Origin: Malania oleifera
Taxonomy: Eukaryota > Streptophyta > Magnoliopsida > Santalales > Ximeniaceae
Length of the DNA stretch: 64,000 bases
Direction of reading: 5' to 3'
Assembly (NCBI RefSeq): GCF_029873635.1
Contig: NC_080421.1
Location: forward strand, 40,157,120 to 40,221,119
The notes beneath the pieces are model-generated. The model was given only the letters and a program-made list of their open reading frames with translations, was not told where the DNA came from and made no database searches. The position numbers and the translations under genes are program-made. This document shows, in pieces, positions 7,367 through 60,280 of the stretch (positions within the stretch are counted from its first letter, which is position 1; each line of letters starts with the position of its first letter).

Positions 7367-8317
7367 CGTATATGTTGATTTATACTGTGTTATAGGGATG
7401 GTCGTGCCTTGACTTGTTTTAAACTGTATGTGTTTGGAAAACCATGATTTTAGATTACCAAATAGGTGTGGTTTGTTTGGTTATATGAGCACGCATGTTT
7501 ATGTTGTGTTTGGTTGAAATGCTAGTAGAAACATGGTTCCAAAATTGTTCTAGGTACTGAGAGTTTCCGACTCTATATCCGAGGGCATGAGCCTATCCCG
7601 GCTGATCACCAATGGGTGTGGATCCACCAGTTTAGCACCAGTATGATATCATGGGAGTCTGGGACTAGCCATGTGCCGGTCGTGCCGTGTTTCGCGGGCT
7701 GGCTAAGGGCTAACGTCGTATGTCGCGGGCCAGCTTCGGGCCGATGGGTGCGACGACTCCAGGTTTTGCTGATCATATGTGTGTGCATGTATGCACTGTT
7801 GTGAAATTAGTACTGGAACTGCATTTAACTGCATGTATGTTACATCATGATAACACTCAAATGCCACACATCAATATAACTTGTATCCTTCCTTACTAAG
7901 AGGTGTCTCACCCCTACTGTACGTACATATTTTTTAGGTCCTTCGAGTAATCGGAACTAACGTCCTTGTGTCAGGAGCGTAGTGGCCGGTGTACTGCGGG
8001 TAGCGCTTGGGTAAGTGTCAGGACTTGTATTTTTTGGGTTGCCATTTTGAGATATGTTGGGCACCCATTTGTACATTATTTGATGGACCCTTGGTTCTAT
8101 CCTTGTATAGACTCTGGTATGGTACTGTATGTATATAGAATGATCATATTTTTGCTACGTACATTCTGTTGTGATTGGATGTGTATAGGGTACCTGGAAA
8201 CCCCATGGGATCGGACCCTCATCCTCTATATAGTATCTTTGGATATTTTTTTGGATATAAGGATAGGTTAGGTTACTTATTCACGCCTGGGACCCATCTA
8301 CGGATTCGGGTTGTGAC
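7367..8317 (+). repeat. E6 3' LTR, right half
   Basis: Plus-oriented LTR sequence: it has the CTAAGAGGTGTCTCACCCC block that in the other gypsy LTRs reads as TGAGATGTGTCTCA..., and ends GGGTTGTGACA at 8317. The left half is missing. The sequence right of 8317 is minus-strand pol of E1, so the edge looks like an insertion boundary, but no matching TSD is left. Confidence 0.6.
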
Positions 8318-8432: not shown

Positions 8433-8955
8433 TGTAATGACCTACTATTTATTTTCCAGGATTTTTTTTATATATATTATACCAGGAAATTTATAATGCT
8501 ATCATACCTGCTAGATTAAACCAAACCATCACCCTACGCAGTGAGAAGCTAAAACCACACAACCACCACCATATATAAATATGTACAATACCATAGAGCT
8601 ACAATGTTCCCAAACTATATAGATATGACATTTTCCCAAAATACCCTGGGCTGGGGCTATACAGAAATACTCACTCTACTGACAGGGCAGTACTAAAGCC
8701 CCACTACCTGCGAGCTTGATCTGCTTGCCTAGTTAGATCACCTAAAAAATATTAATTTAATGGGATGAGACGACGCTCAGTAAGACGAAAGATGCTATTA
8801 CTAGTGTGTGGTAAATGAGTTACAATACTATGAAAATATGTTTCTATATAATCATGTATAACTGAATCTGTAAATACAATACAAGTAATATAAACCACCA
8901 CCTTTTACCATGTTGCTTAACATATATCTGTATTTTAGGTTTTTATACATAATAC

Positions 8956-8992: not shown

Positions 8993-9877
8993 TCTATTTC
9001 TGTGAAACTGTACGTACATAGTAATAACTGAAAACTTCCCTAGATAGATAACTGTATGTCATGATTTAACCCCTCATGGCAGGGTTGTGCGGCCTGTAGG
9101 CGGAATCTATCATTGGCTGGCCTACCAAGATAAACCACTACACTCCATCAGTCCGATCAGCCCTCCTCAACCCATATCTAATGGGGAGCCTGTCCATATG
9201 TGGGCATGATCAACTTATCTACCACGTATTATCTAAATAGGTGGTTACACTCTATTTTGTATATAGCAACGGTACTGTGCTCTATAAACTGTATCTGTAA
9301 TGGTCCATTAGGGTCAGATACTATATAATACTTCTTTATATACAACTATCTGTTTTACCATGATTCTGTAATAACTGTATTAACCATGATGATGTAGTAA
9401 ATTGTATCTATATCAATTGTGTTTCTATGATTAACTGTAAATCTGTATGTCATGGTACTGTAAAACTGTATAATCATGGTATTCTGAAAATGCTGTAAAA
9501 CATATTTACTGTCCGTATATTCTGTATAACATAACTCTGAAAGATACTATAAAACATGTTTTTGTACTTTATCTATATTCCTAAGCCACATGGTAATTTA
9601 AAACATATTAAACATACTTGTTAAACTGTATAATTTTCTGCTGTGAAGAATAATATGGTAAAAACGTATAATTTATATTGAAAACATACTAGAATTGCCT
9701 AACATAGCATACTTCCCTTACCTGATTCCTGTTAAAATCCCCTACTGTGATGGGTCCTACACCCGCAGGGTTCTCCATCCAACACCCTGAAAACCATATA
9801 TCCAAGAACGAAACATCATTATTTCTACGTCTACTACATTTCCTACAACTGCTGGAAAGCCAAATTTTTCTTAAAAG

Positions 9878-16239: not shown

Positions 16240-16543
16240 CCTGAAAAACATGTAACTTAACTCAATACTTCCTTCTCTATACGTATCACTCAACTCATAT
16301 AATATTTTTCTCCTAATTAACTTGTCACTCCTGATCTTAATTCAAGGTTCAATCATACAACCTAGACACCCAACCTGACGATAGTCTACCATGACTTTCC
16401 TGAAATCGTCACCCCAGGAAAATCATACAAACCACCACAGAAGTCCTGTATCTAGACTACAAAACCAGATTTCAAATTCCTTCATCCTATATTCTGGTAT
16501 TATTACTACTACACTCTAGAGTCTACAAAACCTAGTATCCTAG

Positions 16544-16555
16544 GCTTTGAAACCA
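16544..16555 (-). other. E2 primer-binding site (decayed)
   Basis: TGGTTTCAAAGC against TGGTATCAGAGC, the complement of the initiator tRNA-Met 3' end; two mismatches. It lies three bases inside the 5' LTR end. Confidence 0.75.
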
Positions 16556-17462
16556 AACTATAACGACCTCAAATTCCTTAACATAAAATGTAACATAATA
16601 AATGGAAAAGTTTACCCGAACCCGTGGGTAACGGGGACACCTGTCAATCACAACGGAAACCTAAGCAGCAGTAAACATGAAATCTCAATCATCCATCCAT
16701 AAAACATAATACCAGAGTTTACTACAACATCATATAACTGTATTTATATACATCCTCATAAACATCAAAATAACTCTAGGATCAAACACAAAATAATTCT
16801 GACCCTAGTACAAAATCTTACCCTCCTAACGAGGTAATATCACTAACTCAACGGTGGTCACGACCCGCCAATCACTCAGGGTCTCCTGAAAAATTAATTA
16901 TGTTGGGGGTGAGACACATCTCTGTAAGGAAAAATAAACTAAATACAGTTGTGTGGCAACATGAACATTTAATGCAATTATACATATATAGTACATTTCA
17001 TATATTAGTAAACATTCATCATAACATACTAAATTCTCATATGCTTTCATATTTATTAATAAATCATAACGTACATAAAACATCTGTTATAACTGATAAT
17101 ACTGAAAACATACCCAGGATGAATAGCTAGCAAATGTCATGTATTACACCCCATGATGGGTTGTGCAGCTTGAAGGCGGGACCCGACAATGCTTGGCTAA
17201 CCACTACCGAGTCAAATATGTCTGTAAGTACGATGGGCCCGCCATACCCTGGTCCGGACTTCTAAGTGGACGTCCACACTCTACTGAAAGCCATATCGAC
17301 TATTCATCTCCCACCCCCCCTCGTGGGGTGGTTAGCACTAATCCGAACATAGATATCTGATCCATATAGCTATGGTACCGAGCTCCTGAACTAAACTAAA
17401 CTAACATCCAGGTTCTGACAATATATAGTACATGATAGTATAGCATCTTTCATAATTTCATA

Positions 17463-17891: not shown

Positions 17892-18319
17892 TTCAACATA
17901 TCAACAGTATTTTTCTCAAACGTACATTTCCTTCGTAATTTATAACTATAATACATGCCTTTCAGAAAATAATTTTTCTCATAAATAATAATAATTTACA
18001 TGAAAATGACTGCTTTAGTTAATTCCCTTACCTGGCTACTAAGAAAGCCCCTAAAATATCCTAACCTAACACCCATAGGATTTCCTTATCAAGACCCTGA
18101 AAATAAAAACTCACAATACTAAACTTCAGTATTTCTATGTATACGTCATTTTCTATAACTACCGTAAGGTCAAATTTAGCTTAAAAAGCCTTACCTCAAC
18201 TTAGGGATGATTTCCAACTTACTTTCACCAGCGATCCGCTCCGGAAGATTTGGATAGAACTTCCTCAGGAGCGTCGTGGTGACTTCGAATTGTCAATCTG
18301 GCATAAATCCGCCCAAAAT

Positions 18320-18698: not shown

Positions 18699-18703
18699 AC
18701 CTT
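18699..18703. repeat. TSD of E2, right copy (ACCTT)
   Basis: Matches 9878-9882. On the minus strand it is AAGGT, part of the GTAAGGT donor match of LTR S1. Confidence 0.85.
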
Positions 18704-18915
18704 ACCTTGAATATGGGATGATATCCAACTTCGTCCCATCGACAATCCGCTCCAGCAGACTTGGAAAGAACTTCCCCAGGAGCATCATGATGGCCTCAGA
18801 TCGTCGATCCGGTGACTAACAGGGCCAGAATTGAAGAAAGAAGGAGGAAGAACCGTAGGAGAGAAGAGAGAGAGAGTGGCGGTGAATTTTCTGCATAAAA
18901 ATCTTTGTTTACCAC

Positions 18916-20395: not shown

Positions 20396-20827
20396 CCCTG
20401 AAAATAGGTCAGAAAACAATCTTAGAATCCTGTATCATAACATGACCGGTACAATCATTTAACTAAGATACCATAAAATACACTCTATCCTCGTATTAAA
20501 ATACTCAGGCTATCCTAGAAACTTCCCTTATACAAACAAATCAACTTACCATTCAAATTTCCCCTTTTCAAGTCCCAGTATCACTACTCATAAACAAAAA
20601 CCGTTGATAGTTTGCCATGACTTTACTGAAACTGTCGTATCAGGAAAATCACAGAAGACTATCATGGAATTTCTACCTCCAGACTGCAAGATGAACCCAA
20701 AATTCCACTTTAACCTCCAATAATGACTTACTAGATTCCTAATCTACCCATTTCCTATCCTCGTCAAAATTTATTCTTATACTCTAGTATTGTTATCTGT
20801 TAAAGTTTGCAGAACTTAGCAACCTAG

Positions 20828-20839
20828 GCTCTAATACCA
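20828..20839 (-). other. E1 primer-binding site
   Basis: TGGTATTAGAGC on the minus strand, one mismatch to the initiator tRNA-Met complement, four bases inside the LTR edge at 20844. Confidence 0.75.
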
Positions 20840-20843
20840 CATT

Positions 20844-20910
20844 TGTAACGCCCGAAACCCGGTGGGGCTCAGAGTGCTTCTCTCTATACATAATCTCTGA
20901 TACCATAACT
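20844..20910 (-). repeat. E1 5' LTR, inner 67 bp
   Basis: Plus-strand edge TGTAACGCCCGAAACCC next to the PBS. The LTR is cut at 20910 by E3 and continues at 30320 after the second TAACT. Confidence 0.75.
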
Positions 20911-23088
20911 TGTAATGCCCTGACCCTTATACGGCCCCAAAGTACTACTATAAATACATAACCTGTACAAATCCTAATGTCATATGTAACTACCCGCCCT
21001 AAACAAGGACATACAGGTATTTCATAATGATCTACACTCTCATATATTGTGGAAAACATAAACATTCATATGGATTATAATAGACATACTAGAATATCTA
21101 AATGTTCCTTACATATATTCAACTGTACATAAAACATAAACTGTATTACATGCCCAAACCAACCAGGCTAACAACCCAGTACTCACAAAAAAAACTTACG
21201 CTAACTAACAAGACCGTATGCTCCACAACCTCTCTTGATAACTAGGACCGATTTCTTGTAATTCTTAAAAACAAGGTCATAATATTGGGGTGAGACACTT
21301 CACAGTAAGGAGGAAGATATTACATCAGTGTGTGATTGTATAGTTATATACTTATTTGAAAATGATCACATAGATTTCACATTATCAATACTGTAATGTG
21401 TATATATATACAATACATATATAACTCCCTGATAACATAAAACCCAGCATCGTTACAAGTGAGAGTTTCTGAGGTTAGGGTAGGGTATAAGCCCATATAC
21501 TGTACGATCCCTCCACCCGTTACTCAGACCTGTGACTTTCCGCAGTAAAGCCTTTAAATCATGTATATGCATATTTAGAACACCGTCCAGCTCGAAACTA
21601 TCATAACTATGCCAGTAACTCCCCGTGGCAAGGGTTGTGTGCTAAGAGAACACTAATCGAGCCCTGTACGTACAGGCATCGTCAGGCATCATAACATACT
21701 GCAGTCCAACCTAGCCATCACCACTCTGATCCCTTTTGACTAGTGGCCCTTCTTACCAAGCCTACTACTAGGTACCCACACTGAACAATAACTACGTGTG
21801 CTTGCACTGTACCTTGGTTTTGGCAATGGTACTGAGCCTACATAAAATAAGCTTTTTAAGGCTTCATATACTATTGAGACAAGTTGCGGTTCCAATATCA
21901 TATATACAATTTACATTAAAACATAATAACTTGTGCAATTCCAGTATTTTCACAATCTCATTCATGCATACTTTCATTCATACTATGGTAAAAATCGGCT
22001 CGTATTCTCTCAGTTTTACCCTTTTCTCATACTTGGCATGGTATCTAACTGGCACCTGTTTTTTGTATTTTCTAATAATCACTTAGGACCTTAGTTCCCA
22101 TAATTCATAAACATACATATCAAATTAGTATAGATTCAATTCATATCATACGTCACACTTATTTGATCATATATATACATTTCATATAAACTAGTTCGTA
22201 AAATATCATTTCTACTGCTATTAAGAGTTTCAAGCATCTCCTACTTTAGTTTTAATGCAAATAAAGTAGTTTAAGAAATTTGGAGATCATATGCCAAAAA
22301 CCCCAAACCAAAACCATAAAATTGTGAAAAATTGTAGAAATCGATATTTATACCCAGTAAAACTTTGCAAATAAGCAGTCAATAAGTACATATGAATATA
22401 AGCTACATATCCTATGGTTTCTTTTTCTAAAAATATTGATGTAAACAAATCCCCTGACCTTTTAACGTAAAAATCAAAACACGAGCTTGTTGATCCAAAC
22501 TACAACACGAAATCCTCAAAACCTAAAAATCGAAGAACAATACTTCAGTATAATCTTATTTACTACAGATCTACAGAATCAAAAAAGAATTCAGATCCTT
22601 ACCTCAATTTTAAGAAAAATCCTGAAAATCCTCAAAACAACGATCTGATCTACTATAACTGTAGAGTTTCTCCTTCTAATCCACACAGAAACCTCTAATC
22701 GTCGAAACGGACGACGAACGGTGAAGAATCGTAGAGAGAGAGAGAGAGAGAGAGAGGGAGCTTTTGGGTTTTCTTAACCCTTAAGCAACTAAAAATGATA
22801 TTTATAAGGCCTTTGACCAAGTCAAACTCTTCGACGAAGCGGCACCTTCGTCAACAAACCAGCCAGGCTGTTCGTGGACGAAGTTTTTCCCTCGTCGATG
22901 AACCCCATCCAGATATTTTCTTTGGTTCGCTCGGTATCTCTTCGTCGATGACTCTTTGAATTTTGGCGATGAAAAGCTGAAGGGACTTTGTTGACGAACA
23001 TATTGCCCTTGTCGACGAACCCTGCTGTTATTCCGTATTTACTCCATTTCTAATTTATTTTCCTTATTTACGGGTTCGGGTCTCTACA
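20911..23088 (-). repeat. E3 3' LTR (2178 bp)
   Basis: Minus-strand start TGTAGAGACCCGAACCC at 23088; end GGGCATTACA at 20911. TATA box 22799-22806, GA/CT run 22733-22757, palindrome array about 22826-23022. Confidence 0.9.
22799..22806 (-). promoter_or_regulatory. E3 3' LTR TATA box
   Basis: TATAAATA on the minus strand, about 285 bp from the LTR start. In the 5' LTR this box is changed to TACAAATA (30024-30031). Confidence 0.6.
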
Positions 23089-23102
23089 ATCTCCCCTCCT
23101 TG
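23089..23102 (-). other. E3 polypurine tract
   Basis: On the minus strand an AAGGAGGGGAGAT run abuts the 3' LTR start. Confidence 0.8.
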
Positions 23103-23375
23103 TAAAAATTTTTTCCTCAAAATTTGCTAATAAATACTATGCATATTCTACACTTACGACTCAGTCCTAACGAAGAGTTGGCAGCCACCCATATAGCAGC
23201 TCTAGCCCAAGTTTATTACATACCCTCACATATGGCGGAGGAATATAGTGGTTACAACATGATATTTTGGGAGATTACATACAAATACAAAACTCTCCCG
23301 AAGACCATACTATTTAATCTAAACCACCTATACTAATATATATACTTACGTACCATAAAATAACTGCGGGTAGTT

Positions 23376-26300
23376 CTAACGTATCTCTAACTCTAGCTCC
23401 CATGAAGCTTCCTCCACTGCATGGTTACGCCATAATAACTTCACTAGACGTATTTCCTTAGTCCGTAACTATTGTACTTTCTGATATAATACATGCACTG
23501 GTACCTCCCCATATGATAAGGCATCACTGATCTCCAAAGGTTCGTAACTCAGCATGTGTGATGGATCTGACACGTACTTCCTTAGCACTGGCACGTGGAA
23601 TACGTCATGGACTCTGGATAGTGTTAGGGGTAAAGTCACTCAATAAGCAATCAAACCTATCCTTTCCAGGATCTCGAAACGCTCAATATACCAAGGACAT
23701 AGATTCCCCTTCTTCCCAAACCTCATCACCCTTTTCATCGAAGCGATCTTCAAAAATACCATACTTCCTACCTCAAACTCTAGTTCTCATTGGCAAGTAT
23801 CAGCAAAACTCTTATGCCGACTCTGAGCTGCCTTAATTCTCTCTCTGATCAACTCAACCTTTGTAGAGGCCTGTTGAATCAGTTTCAGACCTAGTATCTG
23901 CTGCTCACCTACCTAATCCTAGTACAACGAAAATCGACACCGACGACCATACAATGCCTCGTAAGGTGCCATCTCTATGCTAGCCTGGTAACTTCTTTTA
24001 TATGCAAACTCAACAAGCAGTAGATATCGTATCCAACTATCATCAAAGTTTAGTACAAAAGCCTACAACATATCCTCTAATGTCTGAATAGTCCTCTCAG
24101 ACTGCCAAACCGTCTACGGGTGAAAAGATGTACTGAATGTCAACTGTGATCCCAAGACATCCTGTGGACTCTTCTAGAAACAAGATGTAAAATGTAGATC
24201 TCGATCTAAAACAATAGAAACAGGGACACCATGGAGTCGTACAATCTCTTACACATACAACTTAGTCAGCCTATTCAAAGAATAAATGACTTTGATTGGA
24301 ATGAAATGTGCAATCTTCATCAGTCGATCAACTACAACCCAAATAACATTCTGCCCATGCACCACCACAGGTAACCCCATCACAAAATCCATCAAGATGT
24401 GCTCCCACTTCAACTTGGGGATGTCAAGTGGCTGAAGTGGTCCCACTGACCTCTGGTGCTCTGCTTTGACCTACTAACACGTCAGGCACTGCTCTACGAA
24501 TCGGGTGATCTCTCTTTTCATGTTCGACCACCAGAAAGATTCCCTCAAGTTTCGGTACATCTTCATATGGCCAGGATGTACGGTGTAGAGTGAATGGTGT
24601 GCCTCCTTTAGAATGACCTGTTTAATCTCGGCATCATTCGGTACACATACCCTGTTATGGAATCTCAAAATCCCATCACCAGAAATACTGAAATCCAACT
24701 TTAACCCACTATGAACTCCTTCTATAACCTCCAAAAGCTCTGGATCCCCCTTTTGCACTGCTCAGATCCTCTCCTATAAGGTTAGCTATACCACTAAGCT
24801 AGCAAGAATAGCCTGATGATTTCCTTCCACTACCTCTAAGACCAACCTTTCTAGGTCCATACAGATTTAATGATAAACTCTCACTGCAGGGACCATTGCA
24901 TCAACTGACTTCCGATTCAAAGCATCAACTACCACATTTGCTTTTCCTGGGTGATAGCTAATGGTATAGTTGTAGTCCTTTATCAAATCAAGTCATCTAC
25001 ACTGTCTCATGTTTAGTTCTTTCTGGGTGAAAATGTACTTAAGACTCTTGTGATCAGTAAAAATATTGTACCTTTCACTATACAGGCTGTGCTTCCATAT
25101 TTTTAATGCAAACACTACAACCGCCAATTCCATATCATGTGTCAGGTAGTTCTTCTCGTACTCCTTGAGTTGACAAGAAGCATATGCAACCACCCTTACC
25201 TACTACATTAGAACACAGACAAGACCCTTCTTAGAGGCGTAACTGTAGATAACAAATCCACCATCCCCAGATGGAATGGTCAGAACTGGAGCTGTAACCA
25301 GTCACCGTTTCAGCTCCTGGAAACTCAGCTCGTACTCATCAGTCCAATCATACCTCACGTTTTTCCTCGTGAGTCGCGTCAATGGACCTGCTAAATTGGA
25401 GAACCCTTCTTCAAAATGATGGTAGTAACCTGTAAGACTTAGAATACTTTTGACCTCCTAAATATTCTTCGGTCTCACCCAGTCCACTACTGCCTTTATC
25501 TTACTCGGATCCACTAATACTCCTTCTTTAACTTCTTCTCCATAAGCATTTGCAATAACTATCTCAAATGAACTTCATGTTTAGCTGCACTCCTAAAATA
25601 CACTAGGATGTCATCAGTAAATACTATGATGAACTGGTCTAAGTATTCAAATCCATAAATGTTGCAGGTGCATTAGTCAAGTCGAATGACATAACTATAA
25701 ATTTGTAATGGCCATACTGAGTTCGGAAAGCTGTCTTCGGAACATCCTCCATTTTCACTTTCCGCTGGTGATACCCAGATCGTAAATCGATCTTAGAAAA
25801 GATCTGCATGCCCTGAAACTGATCAAACAGACCATCGATCTTGGGTAACAAGTATTTGTTCTTTATCGTTGCCTTGTTATGTTCTCTGTAGTCGATGCAC
25901 ATCCTCATCGACCCATCCTTCGTCTTCACAAATAGCACGTGCTCCCCAAGGAGAAACACTCGGTCGAATGTACCCCTTATCTAGTAGCTCTTGAAATTGT
26001 TCTTTTAACTCTCTTAGTTCAACTGGAGCCATACGATACATAGCTTTTGATATCGGCGCCGTACTGGGAGCTAGCTCTATACCAAAATCCACCTCATGAT
26101 CTAGAGGCAATCCCGAAAAATCTTCTGGGAACACATCTGGGAACTCGCACACAACAAGAATCTCCTCCAGTTCACGTTCCCCTATCGGCTTGTCTTTCAC
26201 AAATGCCAGATACCCTTGGCATCCCTTCAAAAGTAATTTCCTAACCTACAGAGATGAAAGGATCCATGGCACGGAGAGCACACACGACCTTAAGAATCTG

Positions 26301-26700
26301 AATTCCTGCTTCCCTAGAGGTCTAAACACCACTTCTCTTCTATGGCAATCGATACTATCATAACTGGTAGACAACCAATCCATACCCAGAATAATATCGA
26401 AGCCATGCATATCAAACACAATAAGACTAACTGGTAGTACTCTCTCCTGAATTTCTATCGGAAAGTTACGAATTACCCTACTACATATGACTACCAGTCT
26501 TGAAGGCATAGCTACTACCAGTTCATAATCTAACTATTAAGTCCCAATGTCACATGGTTTAACAAACCCTCGAGAGATAAAGGAATGCATTTCCCCCGTG
26601 TCAAATAATATAACAACTTTATTGAAAAGCACGTAAATGGTACCTATGACAACATCTCCTGCATTCTCTGCATCACCAGGAGTTTGGGAGTACACCCTAG
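23376..26700 (-). pseudogene. E3 pol (protease, RT, RNase H, integrase, chromodomain)
   Basis: Protease with intact DTG (about 26607, LFDTGEMHSF) and GFDIILGMDWL. RT with [36 protein letters not shown] and a catalytic FTDDILVY motif (about 25600); the frame shifts shortly afterwards because about 25 residues of the usual KFSKCEFW region are missing near 25530. RNase H with [29 protein letters not shown] and [16 protein letters not shown] (25193-24993). Integrase zinc-binding HH-CC part (24758-24474), core with VVDRL and LDRD (24446 to about 24050), and an end with LSRVHDVFHVPVLRKYV and [15 protein letters not shown], closing with TAG at 23378-23376. At least ten breaks. Confidence 0.85.
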
Positions 26701-27716
26701 GCTGGTCTGTTTCGCCTCAATTGACCACCCTACTGTGCTTGAGCACCTACTTCATATGACTGTTATGGGGCTCCGCTATTCATCGGCATGCGACATTCTT
26801 TCTTCTGATGTCCCATCCTAGCACAATGGAAACAAGCTCCAAAACCTGACAAACACCTCCCTGAGTGAGGTCTCCCACACTTGGAGCAAGCCGGAGTAGT
26901 TGCGGTACTCTGTGAAGCACCACCACTGTTCTTCTTCCAGTGGCCCTGCTTTGCCCCTCCATAAGGATTGGAAGATGCGGGTCTCTTCTTCAAAACCTAA
27001 ACCTCAAAGTCCTCCTGTAAACTCTCTTATACTATTGTGGCTTTGTCAGCTAGAGTGACAAAGTCCTACATTTTCTAGATCATAGTTTGCTTCCTAATCT
27101 CCTTCTTCAGGCCCCTTTGAAACTTCCAAGCCTTCTTTGCCTCGTTCGGAATCATGAATGGAGCAAATTGAGATAGCTCCTGAAATCTGGTAGCATACTG
27201 CTGAACTAATAGTTGCCCCTGCTCCAGAATCATGAATTCCTCCATCTTAGCATTTTTGACCGTGGTTGGCAAACATTGTTCAAAGAATAAATTTTTGAAC
27301 TGAGCCCATATCACAATCATAGGAGTAGGTCAATGCTCTTCAAGCATCTTAACTGACTTCCACCACCTCTCTACTTCACCCGTCAGCTTGAACATTGCAA
27401 AGGCTACCTTCTACCTCTCAGTGCAATTTAGGACATCTAGAATCTTCTTAATCTCCCTAATCCAAATCTCCAATTCTCAGCTCGAATCGAATCTACACTC
27501 CCCATGAAAGACAAAAGGTTTCAGTCATGTAAACTGGTCAATAGAGCATCTCAACTCAGCAAGGGGACGATCTTGACCCTTATTCGTCTAGACATCCTTA
27601 GCCATAAGCTGTTGAGCAAAGTCCCATAGCACACTAGTAGAGTCACTGCTAGCCTCATGGCCAACACCCTTACTACTACTGCCTCCAATGTTGGCAGTAA
27701 TATCCCTAGATTCCAT
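26700..27716 (-). pseudogene. E3 gag
   Basis: ATG at 27716-27714 (MESRDITANIGG), one base after an acceptor-like CTTTTTAG|G. The core has RWWKSVKMLEEH, WAQFKNLFFEQCLP, LEQGQLLVQQYATRFQELSQFAPF and KAWKFQRGLKKEI. The knuckle CFHCARMGHQKKEC (about 26820) is an intact CX2CX4HX4C. Several in-frame stops lie in the N-terminal half. Confidence 0.82.
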
Positions 27717-27717
27717 C

Positions 27718-29811
27718 CTAAAAAGCAATTGAGAAACATCGATTAGAAGCTTAACAAACTACTTATCAACTACTATCATGAGACTACAAACTCATTCCTT
27801 ATAGGAACCTTCCTAGTACTGACGTACTCTGATGACTCACATTCTCATTCTAACTCGAGTTTCACCCTTCCACTTAGAAACAAAACTGTCAATAGATTGC
27901 CATGATTTTATGAACCCTTTGAATGATCCAGAAAAATACAGAAGTTTGTCAATGAATTTCTGTCCCTAAGTATACTAAGCTAAACTTGAAAGTCATATTC
28001 ACATCCTAAACTCTGGTCTAGTCTACTCTACAGAATCTAGCAACCTAAGCTCTGAGCATATCCATGACTAGGCAGTGCAATTCACATCACACTTCCCCCG
28101 AGCTATGGGCTCTGATACCAAACTATAACGCCTAGCCCTTATACGGCCCCAAAGTGCTATTATACATACATAACCTGTACAAATCCTAATGTCATACATA
28201 ACTACCCACCCTAAACAGGGACATACAGGCATTTCATAATGATTTATACTCTCATATATTGTGGAAAACATAAAAATTCATATGGATTCTAATAGACATA
28301 CCAGAGTATCTAAATGTTCCTTACATATATTCAATTGTACGTAAAACATAAATTGTATTACATGCCCAAAACCAACCAGGCTAACAACCCAGTACTCATA
28401 CAAAAACTTACGCTAACTAACAGGATCCTACACCCCACAACCTCTCTAGACGACTAGGACCATTTTCCTGTAACTCCTGAAAACAAGGTTGTAAGATTGG
28501 GGTGAGACACTCTCAGTAAGGAGGAAGATATTACATTAGTGCGTGACTGTACAGTTATATTCTTATTTGAAAACGATCACGTAGATTTCACATTATCGAT
28601 ACTGTAATGTATATATATACAATACATATATAACTCCCTGATAACATAAAACCCAGCTTTATTACAAGTGAGAGTTCCCGATGTTAGGGTAGGGTACAGG
28701 CCCATACACTGTGCGATCCCTCCGCTCGGTACTCAGAGTAGTGACTTTGCCCAATAAAGCCTCTAAATCATGTATATGCATATTTAAAAAACAGTCCAAC
28801 TCGAAACTATCATAACTATGCCAGTAACTCCCTGTGGCAAGGGTTGTGCACTAAGAGAACACTGATCAAGCCCTGTACGTACAGGCATCGTCAAGCATCA
28901 TAACATACTGCAGTCCAACTTCGCCATCACCACCCTGATCCCTTTTGACTAGTGGCCCTTCTTACCAAGCCTACTATTAGGTACCCACACTGAACAATAA
29001 CTACGTATGGTTGCATTGTACTTTTGTTTTGGCAACAGTACCGAGCCTACATAATATAAGCTTTTTAAGGCTTCATATACTATTGAGAAAAATTGCTGTC
29101 CCAATATCATATATAAAATTTACCTTAAAATATAATAACCTGTACAATTCTAGTATTTTCACAATCTCATCATGCGTACTTTCATTCATATTGTGGTCAA
29201 TATCGACTCGTAACCTCTCAGTTTTAACCTTTTCTCATACTTGGCACAGTATCTAATCGGCACCTATTTTCTGCATTTTCTGATAATCACTTGGGACCTT
29301 AGTCCCCATAATTCATAAACATACATTTCAAATCAGTATAGATTCAATTCATATCATACGTCACACTTATTTGATCATATATATACATTTCATATAAACT
29401 GGTTCGTAAAATATCATTTTTGCTGCTATTAAGAGTTTCAAGCATCTCCTACTTTAGTTTTAGTGCAAATAAAGTAGTCTAAGAAATTTGGAGATCATAT
29501 GCCAAAAACCCCATTTTTTTCAAAATCGTAAAATCGTGAAAAACCGTAAGAATCGGCATTTATACCTGATAAAACTTTGCAAATAAGTAGTCAATAAGTA
29601 CATATGAATATAAGCTACATATCCTATGGTTTCTTTTTCTAAAAATACTTATGTAAACAAATTCCCTTACCTTTTAACGTAAAAACCAAAACACTTGTTG
29701 ATCCAAAACTACGATACGAAATCCTCAAAACCTAAAAACCAAAAAACAATACTTCAGTATAATCCTATTTACTACAAATCTACCAAATCAAAAACAAATT
29801 CAGATCCTTAC
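27718..29811 (-). other. Predicted leader intron of E3 (2094 nt)
   Basis: Donor CGAG|GTAAGG at 29812/29811 in the 5' LTR and acceptor TTTTTAG|G at 27719-27718, with the gag ATG one base further. It contains the PBS. Confidence 0.6.
28109..28120 (-). other. E3 primer-binding site
   Basis: TGGTATCAGAGC on the minus strand, exact match to the initiator tRNA-Met complement, three bases inside the 5' LTR. Confidence 0.9.
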
Positions 29812-30314
29812 CTCGATTTTAGGGAAAATCCTAAAAATTCTCAAAACGACGATCTGATCTGCTATAACTATAAAGTTTCTTCTTCTGATCCATGCAGGAA
29901 CCTATAATCGTTGAAATGGATGACGAACAGTGAAGAATCGTAGAGAGAGAGAGAGAGAGAGAGAGCACTAATTCTAAAGAGAGAGTTTTTGGGTTTTCTT
30001 AACCCTTAAGCAACCAAAAATGATATTTGTAGGGCCTTTTGACCGAGTCAAACTCGTCGATGAAGTGGCACCTTCGTCGACAAACCAGCCTGGCTGTTCA
30101 TGGACAAAGCTCTTCTCTTGTCGACGAACCCTATTCGAATATTTTCTTTGATTCGCTCGATATCTCTTCGTCAACGACTCTTTGAATTTCAACGACGAAG
30201 AGTTTAAGGGACTTCGTTGACTAACATATTGCCCTCGTCGACGAACCCTGCTGTTATTCCCTATTTACTCCTTTTGTAATTTATTTTCCTTATTTATGGG
30301 TTCAAGTCTCTACA
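28124..30314 (-). repeat. E3 5' LTR (2191 bp)
   Basis: Partner of 20911-23088. Inner edge decayed (TATAACGCC). GA/CT run 29942-29966, donor at 29812/29811, palindrome array 30053-30245. Confidence 0.9.
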
Positions 30315-30747
30315 TAACTCATATTAAACAACACAGCGAAACCATAAAATATGTAAACCCCAAATAATATACCAGAGTTCTAATGTTGCCATAATGACAT
30401 ACATATATCCCCCAAAAAAATCCATAATACATCCCGAGATACAAATGACTATATCTATTTACATAACTGTGTCTCACAAGTACTTACCCTGAACTACTCT
30501 ATCTAGTCCTATCCTGGGCTCTCTAGGTTTGGTTCATTGGATTTCCTAAAACATTGAAATTAATATTCGGGGTGAGACACTTCTTAGTAAGATGGAACAA
30601 ATTAATATCAGTATGTGGCAAATGAGTTTTAGTATAGCAAGAATACATCCATTAATTAATTAATTTAACTGAGATAACATCTAAAACTGTACTCACACCT
30701 ATATAGTCAAACAAAATGCATATTTATTTCTCAACACATGGTTCATT

Positions 30748-30960
30748 GAGCATCCCTCCCCATCGGCCTCAATACATACTTCTCAACCGAATTTCCATAC
30801 TGAGTATTCCTCCCCATCAGCCTCAGTATAGACATCACAACATAATTTCCATACTGAGCATTCCTCCCCATCGGCCTCAGTACAGACATCACAACACAAT
30901 CTTCATGCTGAGCAATCCTCCCCATCAACCATAGTATAGACTTATTTCCACAATTTGGTA
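30748..30960. repeat. 54-bp minisatellite, 4 units, in E1 LTR
   Basis: Units start at 30748, 30802, 30856 and 30910 (exact 54-bp period), each beginning GAGYAWYCCTCCCCATC; the last is diverged. Open frames here on both strands come from the repeat. Confidence 0.85.
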
Positions 30961-31590
30961 TAAAACCTTCATATTCACAATAAGTATAAAGCCTTTCATA
31001 TTCATAGTTTGGTGAAAAACCGCCATATCATAAACCTGTATAAGTCTCGTCATATCATGAATCTGTTTGAATCTTGTCATATTATGAATCTGTCTAAATC
31101 ATGTCTTATCATAAATTTGTATAAATTCATACATTGTTGTGTATCATCATAAAATATTTTATCAAACTTATTTATGCCGTAAAAATAATCATACTCATGC
31201 CACACATTTTGAGTGATAATTTAGGATATAATAACTACCTGGAAAAAATATTTTTACTGAGAAATAATCGTATAATCATCTTCTAGGATTTACTTAACTC
31301 AAAATACCTGGATTTTCCCAAATACACATATATATAATATACCAAATTATCATTTTCTTATGCCCGATTATTCAAAAAATCATATATAACAATCCTATAA
31401 TCATAGACTTCATTTTAATCGGTTAAAATTTGAAAATAAGCTGACATAATTTATTCCCCTTACCTTAACAGTGGAGTGGTGCTTAAGAAGCCCAAACCAT
31501 GAATCTGCTTCGATTAAATCATTGAGGATCAAAGTTAGGATCCCGAAATGGCTTTTGGTCGTCAATTTGGCTAAAATTTGGTGAGAAATT

Positions 31591-49409: not shown

Positions 49410-49411
49410 AT

Positions 49412-53228: not shown

Positions 53229-53528
53229 AACTTTGTTGACCTTATAGGTCACGCCTGGTTTTGATAATGACAAATACTCTTGTAATTAATAAATGTCTAG
53301 TTCATGTGCAGGTCTATATTAGCAGATCATTAATGGCACGCGAAAGCTCAAAACTTGAAGACAAATTCATGCTCTTGATTGTAAAATTTTTGTAGTGAAA
53401 TTTTTCTGTAATAGTAATTAGGGTATTTGATTTGTAATAAGCACACACATCACATGTATGGTTTATTTTGTGAGCTCAAACCAATCATAATGCAAAATGA
53501 CCTTAGAGTGACCTTAGGGTTTTCCCTT

Positions 53529-54070
53529 CGGTCAACCTTCGGTTGACCGATACCAAACTTTTTTGATGTCTTCAAATTGGACTCCAAGTGACCTTAGGAC
53601 ACACACATTTGCACATATGTTTGTTAGGCACATGGATAGGGTTTGTATGATTCTAAACGGGAATGAAATGCACACTTGGTGCACTTTCGGTCAACCGAAC
53701 CAGGCAGTTCATTCTGCCCTGGTCGACCGAACCGGGCTTGGGTCAATAGTTGATCAAGGCCCTGGTCGACCGAGCCTGGTAGTTCAAAAAGCCCCGGTCG
53801 ACCAAAACCTCCCTGGGTCAACATTTTGACCATCTAGTCGACTGAGCCAGGTTTGTACACCAACTACCTGGTCGATCGAGGGTCCTCGAGAGAAATCCCA
53901 GTTGTCTGGTCAACCGAACCAGCCAGTTCAAATTGGCCCGGTCGACCAAACCTCGGAGATTTGAAAAATCTCCCTCTCCTAGTCGACCGAGCCCTCAGTT
54001 CAAAAGTCCCCTGGTCAATCGACCCATATGAGACTTGGTCGACCGAACTTGTTCTGGTCGACCGGACCTC
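53529..54070 (+). repeat. GGTCGACCGA motif array in S3 U3
   Basis: About 13 near-palindromic copies (for example near 53687, 53720, 53762, 53796, 53908, 53939, 54035 and 54056) within 540 bp, ending about 125 bp upstream of the TATA box. The open frames 53563-53829 and 53853-54098 (and minus-strand ones) are by-products. Confidence 0.8.
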
Positions 54071-54194
54071 TCGGGTTGCACCTAATTTTTTACCATAGTT
54101 AAAATTTTTAAACAAGGATAAAATGGGTTAAATGTCATTAAACTTTTCGAACAATCCCTAATAGGTCCCCAACGGTCAAAAATTGTGGTATGTC

Positions 54195-54202
54195 TATATA
54201 TA
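54195..54202 (+). promoter_or_regulatory. S3 TATA box
   Basis: TATATATA about 960 bp from the LTR start. Confidence 0.5.
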
Positions 54203-55433
54203 CTCCTTCATTTGGGAGAATTAAGCATCGATTAGCAAAGGGATTAAAAATTTCTCTCTCAAGAAAAAATACTCTCTTTTGATTCCTATTGCTCATACTT
54301 TCCCTACAAACACTACAGCTTTTCTTCTCAAGTTGAAAATCATTTGTAAGAGCTTTGAGTGTATATTCAAAAAGGTTTTGCTCTCATTGTTTAAAGTGTT
54401 TTGAATCGATTTTTCTAACGAGAGCATAACCTAAGTATTCTTAGGAGGCATTTCTAATAAGCTTATCCTAAGAAGACTTGTTAAACTTCCGAGTGTTGCA
54501 TTCTTATTGCAATAACTTAGGAAGTTTGTATTTGTTTTTGGCTTGCAAAAATACTTTCAAACTTACTCAAATATCTTATGGTATTCATATTGACATCTTT
54601 GTTGGAAGATATTTGTGTTTGATATACTAATCTTTGTGACAATATTTATTCAGGTCCATATCACTTGCTGAATGCAAAGATTGCTTAGCTTCTGCAAACC
54701 AAGCATATACACTAGTTGAAGTGACTGACACATACTACTATTTGAAATATTTGAGACTTGCATGATATCTTTGTTTGAGCATTTTGATTAAGAACATATT
54801 GAAATACAAAGATTTCTAGTTGACACTCTCACGTACGCATTACACTGATAGAAAACATATTTGAGAGTTGAACTATTTAGACCACACTGAGCTTACATTT
54901 TAAATCATCTGTGGTGTTTGTGATTGTGCGCATTTGTGGTACAAATCTACTTTACATGAAAGCACCTTTATATTGTACCTTTTGATTGTATATCTGAGAG
55001 ATTCCAGGTGTGGCCTGAGGGGGCGGTAATCCAGCTCAGTAAGGATTGGTGTAAAGGTTGAGGTCCGCCATGTGCTAATTGATTTGGTTAAGGTTGAGGT
55101 CAACCCTGTGTTAATTTGACCTGGTCTGTACAGGTGCCGCTCCACCCTTTTAAGGGAGCAAGTTATTTTGATAATCCTTGTGCTGGTTAGCCAAGGCGGG
55201 GACGTAGGCAGTTGGTCGAACCTCGATAACATATCTGTGTGTCACCCTGTTCTTTACTGCTTTCTGGTGCTGGTGTAATTAATTAAACTGTTTTATTTAA
55301 CTTCTGATATTACTTGCACTAGATTGATCATAGGGTTGTGAACATACTATTGTTAGAAGGAACACCTAGGGGATAGATTTTAAAAATACCAATTCACCCC
55401 CCCTCTTGGGATCACGGTAAAGCTAACAAACTT

Positions 55434-55888
55434 TATGAAATTGGTTATGTTTTGCAATGCACAATTCTCATATCTATTACATGATAATGATTCTATTTAT
55501 GTTTTATATCTTGATCATACTGCAACTGTTTGAGTTGAGTAGTTGTGGATAAAGTGTTAGATCTTAAAACTCAAAACAGGTCATTTTAATACAACAATTT
55601 TTGGCAAATGTCTTATTTTCAGACGACATGCTACCGAAATTTTTAAAATTCCAAAACTTCTCTTGTGTACTAATTTTCTATACCCAATACCTAAGGCTAT
55701 TAGTTTCATGTCCCTTTTTGCTATTTCCAAAAAGGGGAGATGGAAAAGATGGCAAAATTTTGGTTGACTTGAAAATTGGGTTGAATTAAACTTAAATGGA
55801 AATTATTTAAAGTTTTACATAATGCACATTGTTTGGGGGGGCCTTCTAAGGTTATACCCTTTTCTTGCACGATGTATTTATCATCATC
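55434..55888 (+). other. E4 interior right of S3
   Basis: AT-rich, no domains; leads into the PPT. Confidence 0.5.
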
Positions 55889-55902
55889 AAAAATGGGGAT
55901 AA
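55889..55902 (+). other. E4 polypurine tract
   Basis: AAAAATGGGGATAA directly before the 3' LTR start TGTTGACC. Confidence 0.65.
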
Positions 55903-56905
55903 TGTTGACCTCACACTCAGTTTTGATAATGACAAATACTCACGCATTTGATGGTTTTCAAGTGTTTATGTAGGCTTAGATGAGCATCTCAAAGAATGAC
56001 ACTTAAAGAAAGACATGAAGACCCTGGAGATTTTAATTTGTATTGCCAATTCAATTTATGTAATATGGGCCTATAATAGTAACTAGGGATATGGTCTGTA
56101 TTAAATACCTGCATATCATGCATAATAGGATATATGGTAAGCTCAGTAAGATCATAGTATGACTCTAGGTCCCAAAACTCATGCACACATATCATATCAA
56201 ATACAGGAGTGTTAAAAATGCACTTAAATTGAATATTTTAGGGATTTTGAGAGAGCTTGGGTAACTAAACCCCAAGAGTTCAAAACTCCTCGGGCGCCCA
56301 AATTGTTGAGAAGTCAATAGTTGACTTAGGCTCTTGGGTGACCGAACAAAATTGTGCACACCTTCCACAAGAGCCCAAACCACCTAAAAAGGACATTCCA
56401 CCAACTCGGGCTATCGAGCTATTTAGTTCAAATTCAGCCTCGAGCGACTAAACACACGAGTTCGGGCTACCGAACCTATGACTAGGCACCCGAATTTATG
56501 AATAAATGTTTCTGACTTTGATTCAGACCACTGAACTAAAACTCGGGCTACCAAACCTATTTAAAGACCTTTTATCATTGTGTTTATTCAGGCGACTGAA
56601 TCACGATTCAGCCACCCGAACCGTGCCGGGTTAAAAATTATTTAACTGTGGTAAATACGGGTTAAGTTGGGTTAATGTCATTTAAACATTTTTGGAACTT
56701 TTTTAAGAATTCCTAACATGTCCCAAACGGTTATAATTTTTCCCATGCCTATAAATATAAGCTCATTTGTGAGGATTAGCAATTAATTAGCAATTTCATT
56801 AGCCAAAAATCATCTCTTTTAAAAATACACTCTTTGTCCAAATACTCTCAAATTTCCATTCCCTTGATATATTCTGAGATTGTGAGAGCATATTTAGAGT
56901 GTTTG
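55903..56905 (+). repeat. E4 3' LTR, left part
   Basis: Matches 47447-48470 with scattered differences. Cut at 56905 by E5; the expected E5 target duplication would be GTTTG (56901-56905), whose second copy lies beyond the window. Confidence 0.85.
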
Positions 56906-56976
56906 TGTAGTGACCCGAAGAATTATGGTATTTAAATAATAAAGAAGAAGGAAAATGGAAAATGAAACAGTACCTC

Positions 56977-57165
56977 GTCGACGAACACAGGGGATTCGTC
57001 AACGAGAGCACATGAGGGGCTCGTCAACAGGGACGTGTCTTATCGACAAGAGGATACCGAGAGGATGTTTTGGCAATTCTGAATTTCGTCAATGAGGGGA
57101 GAGTTTGTTTATGAACTTCCTTTTTGACCTCGTCAATGAGGTGATGTGGCTCATTGACGAAGGTC
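56977..57165 (+). repeat. GTCGAC palindrome array in E5 U3
   Basis: About eight imperfect TCGTCGACGA copies (near 56985, 56998, 57022, 57041, 57089, 57131 and 57154), many with C-to-T or G-to-A changes (TCGTCAACGA, TCGTCAATGA). Confidence 0.65.
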
Positions 57166-57169
57166 AGTG

Positions 57170-57177
57170 TATAAATA
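57170..57177 (+). promoter_or_regulatory. E5 5' LTR TATA box
   Basis: TATAAATA about 265 bp from the LTR start, so U3 is short (about 300 bp) and R/U5 very long (about 1.75 kb). Confidence 0.7.
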
Positions 57178-57754
57178 GGCATAAACTTCATTTTTTGGCC
57201 GAAAACTCACGTACAACTTTCATTTTCTCTCTCCTCTTCTGTTTCCCATCTTTCTCTCTTGATTTTTGGATTCTTTCTTCGTTGTATCGACGATCTGAGG
57301 CCACCACGACACTCTAAGGGAAGTTCTTTGCATATCTACTGGAGTGGATCGTCGGTGGGACGAGTTTGAAATTCATCCCAGATTCAAGGTAAGGCTTTTC
57401 ATTTGGAATTTGGCTTTACCGTAGTTATAGGAAATGTTATATACGAAGAAATACTGAAGTTTAGTTGTGGGAGATGTTATTTTCAGAGTATTGAACGGGG
57501 AACCCAGTGGGTATTGGATTGCTTGTTTTAGGGGCTTTCTCAATAATCAAGTAAGGGGATAAACTAAACTAGTAGTTTTATGAAAATATATGTATAATTT
57601 TATAGCATTGGATTTTAGGAATATATATACATTATGTTGGGAAATACCGCTGTAAATGAAGATATGTTCTGAATATACATAATACCCATTCTGTGTGGCA
57701 TGAGTAGAATTTATGATGAAATACTATTTTTTGGGATAATACTAAATGATATGG

Positions 57755-57972
57755 AGTTTTTATATGATATACCGACGTACGGGTCGAGGATGTTTTTATA
57801 TGATATACCGACGTACGAGTCGAGGATGATTTTATATGATATACTAGCGTACGGGCCGAGGATGTTTTTACATGATATGCCGACGTATGGGCCGAGCTTG
57901 TTATATGATGTGCCGGCGTACGGGCCGTGATTGATAAAATATGAAATGCTAGCTTACGAGCCGATGATTTTA
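57755..57972. repeat. Minisatellite in E5 LTR, about 6 units
   Basis: Units of about 36 bp around ACCGACGTACGGGTCGAGG followed by a T-rich ATATGAT tail, starting near 57762, 57798, 57838, 57873, 57907 and 57944. Confidence 0.8.
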
Positions 57973-58962
57973 ATGTTATACATGAAATGTGATGTAATGA
58001 TATTGACTTGACCATTATTATTATGGAATAGCAATGTATCACAATTTGAAATATGTTATATGTTATCAGAACCTGGTTGGCTTGGTTTAAGCTTGCACTT
58101 GCATGGTACCGTAGTTATGTGTTCATGATCATCATGATATTTGTGTTATCGTTGTCATACGAGGCAACGTGAGCATGGATAGTCGATGTGGTTTATTGAA
58201 GTTTTGGCGCCCTTGGTGTATGGACCAGGTCTGGCACACTCATCTTACTTACAGACTGTACTATTGACTTGGCAGTGGTCGGCCAGCGATTGTTAGGTCC
58301 CAACTTCGGGCCATTCAATCCAGTCATGTGGGGGTAAGACATGACACCAGCCAACTAACCTTCTAGGGTGGTTTTTGTATTATTATTATATGAGATGAAT
58401 TATGCTTATAGAAAACTAGTATGTTCTGCTATGCTATGATTATACATGTTTTCCCCATAAATGATATAGATAGTTTTACTAAATATGCTTATGTATGTTT
58501 TTATGTAAAACACGAAAATACTCATGTTGCCACACATTGGTATTAGTTTATTTCTCTCACTGAGAGATGTCTCACCCCAAATTATATGAACATTTCAGGA
58601 GCCCCAGATAGGAGGGCGGATAAAGCTCCGCAGAGATAGTTACAGCTGATCTACCCTTTCTGAAGGGTGAGTATTTTAGATACTTTTAGATACTTTTTGG
58701 GTGGTGACTCTAGGACTATTTTAGATACTTTTGAGATGTGTGTATCTATATGATGGTTGTAGTAAACTCTAGTATTATGTAAAATGGTACGGTGGGATGT
58801 ATATGATTTTATGTTTCCTGCTGCTTAGGCTTCTATGTTGTGTTTCTAATGTATCCATGGTACCCATGGGTTCAGGTTGATTATGATCTGCTGGATTTAT
58901 TATATCGATTTTATTATCATAAGGAAAAAATAATATGGTAAAATAAGCAGGTCATCACGATT

Positions 58963-58974
58963 TGGTATCAGAGC
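58963..58974 (+). other. E5 primer-binding site
   Basis: TGGTATCAGAGC, exact match to the initiator tRNA-Met complement. Confidence 0.9.
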
Positions 58975-59263
58975 CTAGGTTACTAGGTTCTGTAGACTTT
59001 AGAGTGCAGCGGGAACGGTACCAGAGTATTGGAAAATGATTTAAGGTTTTGTTCTATAGACTAGAGGTAGGACTTCCGTGGTGGTTTCTGTGTTTATCCT
59101 GGGGTGACGATTTCAGGAAAACTATAGTAAACTATTGTCGGGTTGTGTTCTTAGAATGTAGGACTGGAGTTAGGAATAAGCTAAGGAAGTTAGGATAAAT
59201 AACTATGTTAGGTGTGTAACCTATAATTATAGGGTTCCTAAGTTACGTTTATTGTTTTTTAGG

Positions 59264-60280
59264 ATGGATCCAGGAGGAGGTAGTGCCCATGAGAGTGGCA
59301 ATGATGGGGCAGGGCCCTCGAGCGCAAGCAGAACTGATTCTAACGCAGTACTACGCAGCGTGCCTCAGCAGGTTATGGCTGAGATCGCTAGGAGCTCCCG
59401 AGAGTAGGAAGGTATGTCTGTAGGCCATGGGAGCACTATAGAGAAATTTACGAAGATGAATCCTCTGGCATTTTCAGGAGGGGTTGATCCTGTAGCTGCC
59501 AAGAATTGGATGCAGGAGATTGAGAAAGTCTTGGCAATGTTACAGTGTATAGAGGAACAGAGGGTCCTCTTCGCCACCTATAAATTGACTAGAAAGGCTG
59601 AGAGGTGGTGGACTGCTGTGAGACTTCTAGAGCAGTAGAAGACAACATTGATAGCCATGACATGGGACCGGTTTAAAGAGTTATTCTTTGATAGGTATTT
59701 TCCAGCTACTGTGAAGGAGGCTAAAGTGGAGGAGTTCCTGAGTCTGAAGTAGGGACGGATGTCGATCTAGCAGTATGTGGCGCGGTTTATCAAGCTCTCT
59801 CATTTCTCTTCGTATATTATTCCTGATGAGGTAAAGAAGGCGAGATTTGAGAGAGGATTGAGGAGAGGCATATTCAAATAGGTGGTAGTGTTGAACATTC
59901 AGGATTTCGTTGAGTTAGTTGATAGAGCAGCCTTAGCAAAGGTTGGTGAGCGTATGGATGTAGAGGAGCAGGGACGGAAGAAGAGATATGCATCTTCAGG
60001 TAGGTCAGGTCAGTGGAGGAAGGCAAATTATGGCAGAGGACGGAGATAGGAAACTGGGGATTGTGAGATTCAGACAGTGCAAAATCCTCTTGTCTGTCAG
60101 ACTTGTGGGAGGAGACACTGGGGAGAGTGTTAATTGGGATGAGCTGTCTGCTATCGCTATGGTAGATAGGGACATATGGTGCGAGACTGCCCTTTACCAC
60201 CAGACATCGCTTCTACTCCCATACCATACCAGGGAGGCTATCAGGCGCCATATGGGGACCAGCAGAAGAATATGGCTCAA
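59264..60280 (+). pseudogene. E5 gag
   Basis: ATG at 59264 (MDPGGGSAHESGNDG) one base after the acceptor match. Core blocks: TKMNPLAFSGGVDP, KNWMQEIEKVLAMLQC, RWWTAVRLLEQ, WDRFKELFFDRYFPA and IIPDEVKKARFERGL. Stops at 59405, 59638, 59750, 59768 and 59879; the first three sit where E2 has CAG, CGG and CAG. The knuckle reads CYRYGR-GHMVRDC, with the second Cys changed to Tyr and a stop inside. Confidence 0.87.

Follow-up and report, generated by a model that had tools for sequence, protein, structure and literature searches.

It is an open question how LTR retrotransposons share out one RNA for translation and for packaging. In the accessible text of a review, plant LTR elements are described as generally intron-less, with Ogre and EVADE as the exceptions and with short-GAG splicing in BARE1 (PMC12786077), and in triticale one intron was reported in 13 of 15 GAG RNAs and none in the single Ty3/gypsy RNA (PMC7765848). 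An intron 5′ of gag was foreshadowed in 2005 by Diaspora, a soybean Ty3-gypsy element of the Athila type in which software had placed donors 1.4-2.2 kb upstream, within the LTR, and acceptors at the start codon of gag; according to its authors these sites were untested and of unknown relevance, and an intron in this position was, to their knowledge, unreported (PMC1142308). Leader splicing goes unmentioned in the available portions of papers on chromoviruses, on LORE1 and on LTR structure (PMC3605345, PMC2832683, PMC3601003) and in those of grapevine long-read work (PMC9097378).

The DNA considered here is a 64,000-nt stretch of Malania oleifera contig NC_080421.1 (forward-strand positions 40,157,120 to 40,221,119; hereafter the window). 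A sequence-only reading had proposed that four Ty3/gypsy elements in it, E5, E2, E3 and E1, each carry one leader intron that runs from a donor in the LTR to an acceptor directly before the gag ATG and contains the primer-binding site (PBS). This observation is borne out and understates what is present. The donor, the acceptor and the PBS between them are real, but a single intron would skip two conserved exon-like blocks, so that the PBS would fall in the last intron only, and a one-intron leader is probably an oversimplification. The best model divides the leader into four predicted exons, 1, 1b, 2 and the gag exon, which are separated by introns of ~98 nt (intron 1), ~1 kb (intron 2) and ~0.6 kb (intron 3, containing the PBS).

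Elements and predicted leader borders

Pieces of E5 and E2 match a Ty3/gypsy-type gag, aspartic protease and reverse transcriptase, with hits of PF03732 to the E2 gag (8.6e-13), of RVT_1 to both elements (E5 7.8e-15, E2 4.5e-22) and of RVP_2 to E5 (1.2e-12) in a domain scan of these two elements. In E5, SH3_Tf2-1 (1.6e-27) directly precedes a chromodomain-like stretch at 63513-63692 whose PF00385 match is weak (E 2.8e-4, 21.2 bits, under the curated 25.1), and a chromodomain was not found in the E2 tail piece scanned. The elements are probably Ty3/gypsy of the chromovirus type, and the long LTR and the domain order suggest a Tekay-like lineage. The PBS TGGTATCAGAGC, presumably of the initiator-methionine tRNA type, is present at 58963 (+) in E5 and 28120 (-) in E3 and in diverged forms in E1 and E2. 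E2 is nested within S1, a further LTR, and E3 within E1. E5 seems to be inserted in the 3′ LTR of another LTR element, E4 (47462-56907, left out of the analysis), because the E5 LTR (TGTAGTGACC, from 56906) starts where the E4 LTR-LTR match ends (56907); a 268-aa ORF piece of E4 has no match to any retroelement family.

The proposed donor AG/GTAAGG (donor 1; slashes mark predicted borders) is present in E5, E2, E3, E1 and S1 at 219, 249, 219, 267 and 218 bp from the TATA box, respectively, in keeping with the 215-270 bp claimed earlier, the degenerate TATA of the E3 LTR measured having been entered into the TATA pattern by hand. A T-rich YAG stands 1-2 nt 5′ of the gag ATG in all four elements, again as proposed. 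The window contains 12 copies of the word AGGTAAGG where 2.02 would be expected, and none of 100 shuffles reaches 12; seven occurrences are donor 1 (E5 57387+, E2 18196-, E3 29813-, E1 31465-, S1 18707- and the 3′ LTRs of E2 at 11542- and E3 at 22604-), three are the exon-1b donor (18033-, 29672-, 9723-) and two are unrelated (14770+, 25201-). The donor at 18707- is S1's own, since E2 is inserted 5 bp downstream of it, with AAGGT at 18703-18699 and again at 9882-9878, and the S1 LTR resumes at 9877 past the insertion.

The skipped blocks are short and alike in layout (Table 1). Exon 2, of 58-68 nt, lies toward the 3′ end of the LTR in all five LTR types (E5, E2, S1, E1 and E3) and is bordered by GTCTCAYCCC, 20-odd nt and TTTYAG on one side and by GTRAG on the other. 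Exon 1b, of 61-65 nt, begins 80-98 nt past donor 1 and is present in four of the five (E5, E2, E3 and S1) between TTTTCAG or TTTTTAG and GTAAGG; a clear counterpart was not seen in the E1 LTR. The exon-2 cassette pattern has eight places in the window versus 0.09 in shuffles (at most 1), one of them in the 3′ LTR of E3, where the AG of exon 2 is lost and the pattern took a later AG. In E5, E2 and E3 all six borders are present, with donors and acceptors alternating as they should. The LTR contains donor 1 as well as exons 1b and 2, so all three are present in both LTRs of an element (donor 1 at 11542 and 22604), and they might act mainly in the 3′ LTR, where they would join transcript ends or readthrough RNA to adjacent host sequence, leader splicing being a side effect. 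We judge this very unlikely, given that the gag acceptor is not part of the LTR and in 4/4 elements immediately precedes the ATG, a position that only a function in the leader explains.

Table 1. Features of the predicted leaders and neighbouring elements, in window coordinates
Feature	Position	Strand	Details
E5 TATA box	57170..57177	+	
E5 exon 1 (predicted)	57202..57388	+	start estimated as TATA+32; no ATG
E5 intron 1 (predicted)	57389..57486	+	98 nt, AAG/GTAAGG to TTTTCAG/
E5 exon 1b (predicted)	57487..57550	+	64 nt
E5 intron 2 (predicted)	57551..58598	+	LTR-internal; GTCTCACCCC motif at 58569-58578
E5 exon 2 (predicted)	58599..58666	+	68 nt, TTTCAG/ to /GTGAGT
E5 intron 3 (predicted)	58667..59262	+	LTR end, PBS 58963-58974, pre-gag leader
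E5 gag acceptor		+	TTTTTTAG/G, ATG 59264
E5 gag exon start	59263..59407	+	ATG 59264
E2 intron 1 (predicted)	18097..18194	-	98 nt
E2 exon 1b (predicted)	18032..18096	-	65 nt, donor CAG/GTAAGG at 18031
E2 exon 2 (predicted)	16822..16885	-	64 nt
E2 intron 3 (predicted)	16241..16821	-	PBS-like TTTGGTTTCAAAGCC; gag ATG 16239
E2 gag acceptor		-	TTTTTCAG/G, ATG 16239
E3 intron 1 (predicted)	29732..29811	-	80 nt
E3 exon 1b (predicted)	29671..29731	-	61 nt, donor AAG/GTAAGG at 29670
E3 exon 2 (predicted)	28412..28476	-	65 nt
E3 intron 3 (predicted)	27718..28411	-	PBS (28120); gag ATG 27716
E3 gag acceptor		-	CTTTTTAG/G, ATG 27716
E1 intron 5′ of exon 2 (predicted)	30546..31463	-	exon 1b not clear
E1 exon 2 (predicted)	30488..30545	-	58 nt, TTTTAG/ to /GTAAGT
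E1 intron 3 (predicted)	20398..30487	-	contains nested E3 insertion; gag ATG 20395
E1 gag acceptor		-	TATTTTCAG/GG, ATG 20395
S1 intron 1 start (predicted)	18699..18705	-	resumes 9877-9787 past E2 insertion; 98 nt, counted by hand
S1 exon 1b (predicted)	9722..9786	-	65 nt, donor CAG/GTAAGG at 9721
S1 exon 2 (predicted)	8675..8741	-	67 nt, TTTTTTAG/ to /GTGAGT
S2 LTR fragment exon 2 (predicted)	7938..8010	+	73 nt, TTTTTTAG/ to /GTAAGT
TCGTCGACGA cluster stretches	56908-57170 (E5), 18698-18443 (E2), 19149-18923 (S1), 30320-30030 (E3)		

Other features of the window concern the same kinds of sequence. A degraded gag piece at 7006-7360 (+), 81% to E2, adjoins the S2 LTR fragment (about 7500-8318 (+)) in the same orientation, and the two together are probably a deletion derivative. 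E4 also has an exon-like stretch at 48997-49146, with GTATTTTCAG/GCGTGG and a GTAAGT ~140 nt on, standing 5′ of a PBS-like TTGGTATCAAAG near 49411. The palindrome TCGTCGACGA (up to 2 mismatches) forms clusters 5′ of the TATA box, with five copies in E5, eight in E2, nine in S1 and seven in E3 and none in E1 or the scanned E4 stretch at the same tolerance; these are possible U3 enhancer repeats, and with at most one mismatch the palindrome has 27 places in the window. On reading, a short tandem-like array whose unit differs by element was noticed at a similar place of intron 2 in E5 (57750-57960), E2 (17640-17450) and E1 (31130-30740).

Site strength, composition and conservation

Sites were scored with a splice matrix of plant frequencies and ranked among all GT or AG of the stretch scanned. 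Donor 1 ranks first of 149 GT in E5, second of 163 in E2 and of 177 in E3, where the top-ranked GT is in both cases donor 1b, and first of 73 in the LTR part of E1, while the gag acceptor ranks first of 116 AG in E5, second of 138 in E2, 11th of 166 in E3 and first of 45 in the part of E1 past the insertion. Exon-2 acceptors rank 4, 4, 4 and 5 in E5, E2, E3 and E1, and exon-2 donors 6 in E5, 3 in E2 and 2 in E1, that of E3, looked up at a coordinate 2 nt off, not being in the top six. The exon-1b acceptor is first in both E2 and E3 and outside the top six in E5, and decoys of like score exist, e.g., acceptors 58255 and 59162 in E5. That donor 1 and the gag acceptor (except that of E3) are among the strongest sites, and that both are conserved, would suit direct joining of the two, with the mini-exons skipped or used in alternative isoforms only. 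The borders of exon 1b and exon 2 are nevertheless conserved and ordered, and their pooled composition is exon-like; pure skipping would not preserve such borders, and direct joining is in our estimate improbable.

Plant introns are U-rich, a rule stated in PMC3735527. The nine mini-exons pooled (577 nt) have 46.6% GC and 27.6% T, compared with 30.8% GC and 39.4% T in the 60 nt on each side of them (1,080 nt), and exon 1b of E3 opposes the T trend (0.44 vs 0.42 in its flanks). Branch points follow the rule YTNAY, which is fitted by the candidate CTCAC or CTCAT within GTCTCAYCCC, starting at -28 to -31 in 5/5 exon-2 acceptors; a second YTNAY, CTTAC or CTCAC, is located at -43 to -46 in all five, and no strict YTNAY was found at -50 to -15 of the four exon-1b acceptors.

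Around donor 1, the five LTR types (E5, E2, S1, E1 and E3) align with a mean pairwise identity of 57% over 108 gap-free columns, and AGGTAAGG is the sole run of eight invariant columns (column-permutation p 0.0009, or 0.09% of trials). The exon-2 alignment, which includes S2, has 51% identity and a best eight-column window GTCTCACC with 7/8 columns invariant (p 0.003, and 0.018 with S2 dropped), and among its remaining invariant runs are the TTT and AGG of the acceptor. For the gag alignment of four elements (48% identity), the best window is AGGATGGA, which takes in the coding letters ATGGA and is likewise invariant in 7/8 columns (p 0.005). These p values are guides only, because the aligner itself prefers identical words, and the LTR types share ancestry, the conservation counts being of non-independent events. 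The elements common to the alignments are AGGTAAGG, GTCTCAYCCC, TTTYAGG and, in five LTR types, GTRAG, for which S2 is uncounted owing to the misalignment of its donor 2. The predicted borders are canonical splice-site sequences in the right order, conserved across families. The earlier argument that the LTRs are too divergent for similarity alone to explain the shared borders stands for E1 and E3 and fails for the E5/E2 pair, in which the 73% ungapped similarity of the donor region suffices for a shared donor; the argument rests on the former two.

Copies in the host genome

The host genome scanned (1.49 Gb, 510 contigs) holds 18,468 exact places of CTTACTGAGNNNNGTCTCACCCC, 9,204 and 9,264 by strand, and none of the same word read backwards; the motif pattern has 0 matches in viral, bacterial and archaeal contig collections, as expected. 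The first 30 places on contig C1 were taken as a sample regardless of splice sites and fall into 25 groups of less than 90% ungapped identity. A strict acceptor rule is passed by 22 of the 30 places (18/25 groups; shuffles 3.6, max 8), and the strict acceptor and donor together by 17 (14/25 groups), versus 0.56 in shuffles (max 3) and 0.48 at randomly chosen points of these loci (max 4), leaving 13/30 that fail the two-sided test. Three of the eight places rejected by the acceptor rule (L042, L045, L056) show a plain TTTCAG by eye, and a YAG is seen by eye at the expected place in 25/30. At least one (A or G)GGTAAG(G or A) is present within 1.5 kb upstream in 26/30 places, that of L052 being at -237, off the expected donor-1 place, and two such donors 125-185 nt apart in 15/30. 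In four of these 15 (L062, L063, L067 and L068) the second donor belongs to a duplicated donor-1 block and not to exon 1b. Each of these four places has its exon-1-end block twice, with about 140-160 nt from one donor-1 copy to the other, a layout reminiscent of recombination between two LTR types within the leader.

Within the E5 type, 29 further loci were chosen by exon-2 likeness and counted where alignable. Donor 1 keeps its GT in 23/25, acceptor 1b its AG in 20/25, donor 1b its GT in 23/25, acceptor 2 its AG in 23/29, donor 2 its GT in 27/29 and the gag acceptor its AG in 8/12, so that the two borders of the sequence-only reading recur in most further copies examined. For the E1 type (12 of 39 other places), exon 2 keeps its AG in 9/12 (one AAG) and its GT in 12/12; as both sets were chosen by exon-2 likeness, the exon-2 counts are favoured. 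The lost acceptors of the two sets read AA in 15/18 cases, suggesting deamination at CAG, and the within-family counts were not used as a selection test because copies decay after insertion and AG-to-AA losses dominate. Such losses bear on the idea that the sites are disused relics of an old element or of a captured host 5′ exon, visible through kinship. All LTR types are related and many copies are without one or more borders, yet the AA losses are those expected of single-copy decay after insertion, and the flanks have drifted to 48-57% mean identity while the borders have not; a relic of this kind appears extremely improbable.

Spliced RNA sometimes leaves genomic copies. A 137-nt query of exon 1 joined to exon 2 gave 3,643 candidate places, and in none of the 40 scored does the match reach more than ~7 nt beyond the junction. 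The exon 1/exon 2 pattern (3 mismatches) has one place, which was rejected as a spliced copy since a small deletion in an unspliced acceptor accounts for it. The exon 2/gag pattern in E5 wording and the exon 1b/exon 2 pattern in E5-like and E2-like wordings have no place in the host genome. This negative is weak, as the four patterns cover two family flavours (E5 only for exon 1/exon 2 and exon 2/gag) without a positive control, and if true it would fit unspliced genome RNA as well as absence of splicing. A partly spliced RNA with intron 3 still in place might in principle give rise, on copying, to LTRs without introns 1 or 2, and the lack of intron-less LTR copies in these searches would be in line with a rare, unpackaged or non-existent RNA of this kind.

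The missing junction copies, for the E5 and E2 patterns and with the weakness just given, would also agree with a different function of the blocks, as signals for dimerisation, packaging, transcription factors or polyadenylation, with gag reached through internal ribosome entry, shunting or a downstream transcription start. The six blocks, however, fit intron borders, alternate properly and have plant-like intron and exon spacing, and pooled GC and T content shift across them, so that such other signals are an unlikely explanation compared with a spliced leader.

Proposed division of the RNA and comparison with known systems

We consider it likely that these elements have a multi-exon leader which is spliced by the host and parts messenger from genome RNA. 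What the sequence establishes is how the sites are ordered, placed, conserved and composed; from this we infer that they are used, where transcription starts and how the two RNA forms divide their roles. Transcription would start about 30 bp past the LTR TATA box, and the host spliceosome would join exon 1, the two ~60-nt mini-exons of the LTR (of which E1 shows one) and the gag exon with its acceptor 1-2 nt 5′ of the gag ATG. The unspliced leader, from TATA+32 to gag, contains 76 upstream ATGs in E5, 84 in E2, 67 in E3 and 67 in E1 (nested E3 excluded), numbers that make plain scanning implausible, compared with 0, 1, 2 and 3 in exon 1 plus exon 2, to which exon 1b adds 0 in E5, 1 in E2 and 0 in E3. 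Splicing would strip nearly all upstream ATGs, and a scanning ribosome could then reach gag, which it could hardly do on unspliced RNA. The PBS is, as the sequence-only reading had it, inside a predicted intron: it falls between the last donor and the gag acceptor (58963 within 58667-59262 in E5, 28120 within 28411-27718 in E3, and likewise for the diverged forms of E2 and E1), which is intron 3 of the multi-exon model. Removal of this intron would delete the PBS, giving a dedicated gag-pol messenger that is not primable at the usual place, and the intron-retaining RNA would serve as the genome for reverse transcription. A split between translation and replication would follow logically from this anatomy.

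If true, the model would answer the question of how one RNA is shared by way of anatomy, i.e., through splicing that deletes the primer-binding site, and would explain how ATG-rich leaders of 2 kb are tolerated. It also gives exact junctions for plant RNA data; in sunflower, Tekay elements are missing from the expressed set in the available text (PMC7730604), which suggests that RNA evidence may be hard to obtain. Should the 18,468 motif places, 30 of which were inspected, mostly be such LTRs, the genome would hold thousands of ready promoters with donors and mini-exons that could join host transcripts and mislead gene annotation. The broadest form of the proposal, to which we give an even chance, is that a dominant plant lineage has a four-exon, gene-like leader with two LTR mini-exons, in which loss of the PBS intron irreversibly commits an RNA to the messenger role and whose LTRs have carried a promoter, first exons and donors into thousands of genomic positions, where they could serve as 5′ ends of host transcripts.

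A leader intron as such has a counterpart in lentiviruses. SIV and HIV-2 have one intron 5′ of gag, within the R-U5 leader, which runs counter to the statement of the Diaspora authors that no such intron was known; it ends 5′ of the PBS, which stays in the RNA, unlike in the present elements, where more than one intron is predicted and the last would take the PBS with it. CRR, the centromeric Gypsy element of rice, is a chromovirus. It has spliced transcripts, in which rt and not the leader is removed (as cited in PMC3735527). In BARE1, a Copia element of barley, splicing parts RNA pools by role, as is proposed here, but the 104-nt intron is at the end of gag and not in the leader, and promoter and capping also separate the pools (PMC3735527). 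EVADE, with its short GAG, and Ogre are further plant LTR elements with functional introns, that of EVADE removing the protease region and that of Ogre lying between gag-prot and pol, so that the PBS stays in all of their RNA forms (PMC12786077, PMC6317226). The sequence-only reading knew of no description of the arrangement, and none was found in the open-licence literature as far as its accessible text goes, apart from one forerunner, the predicted sites of Diaspora, which shares with the present elements a very long leader, LTR donors and gag-start acceptors and differs in lineage and in that no mini-exons are described in the text available (PMC1142308). Spliced LTR retrotransposon RNA is already known, and a multi-exon leader that removes the PBS is a plausible addition to it.
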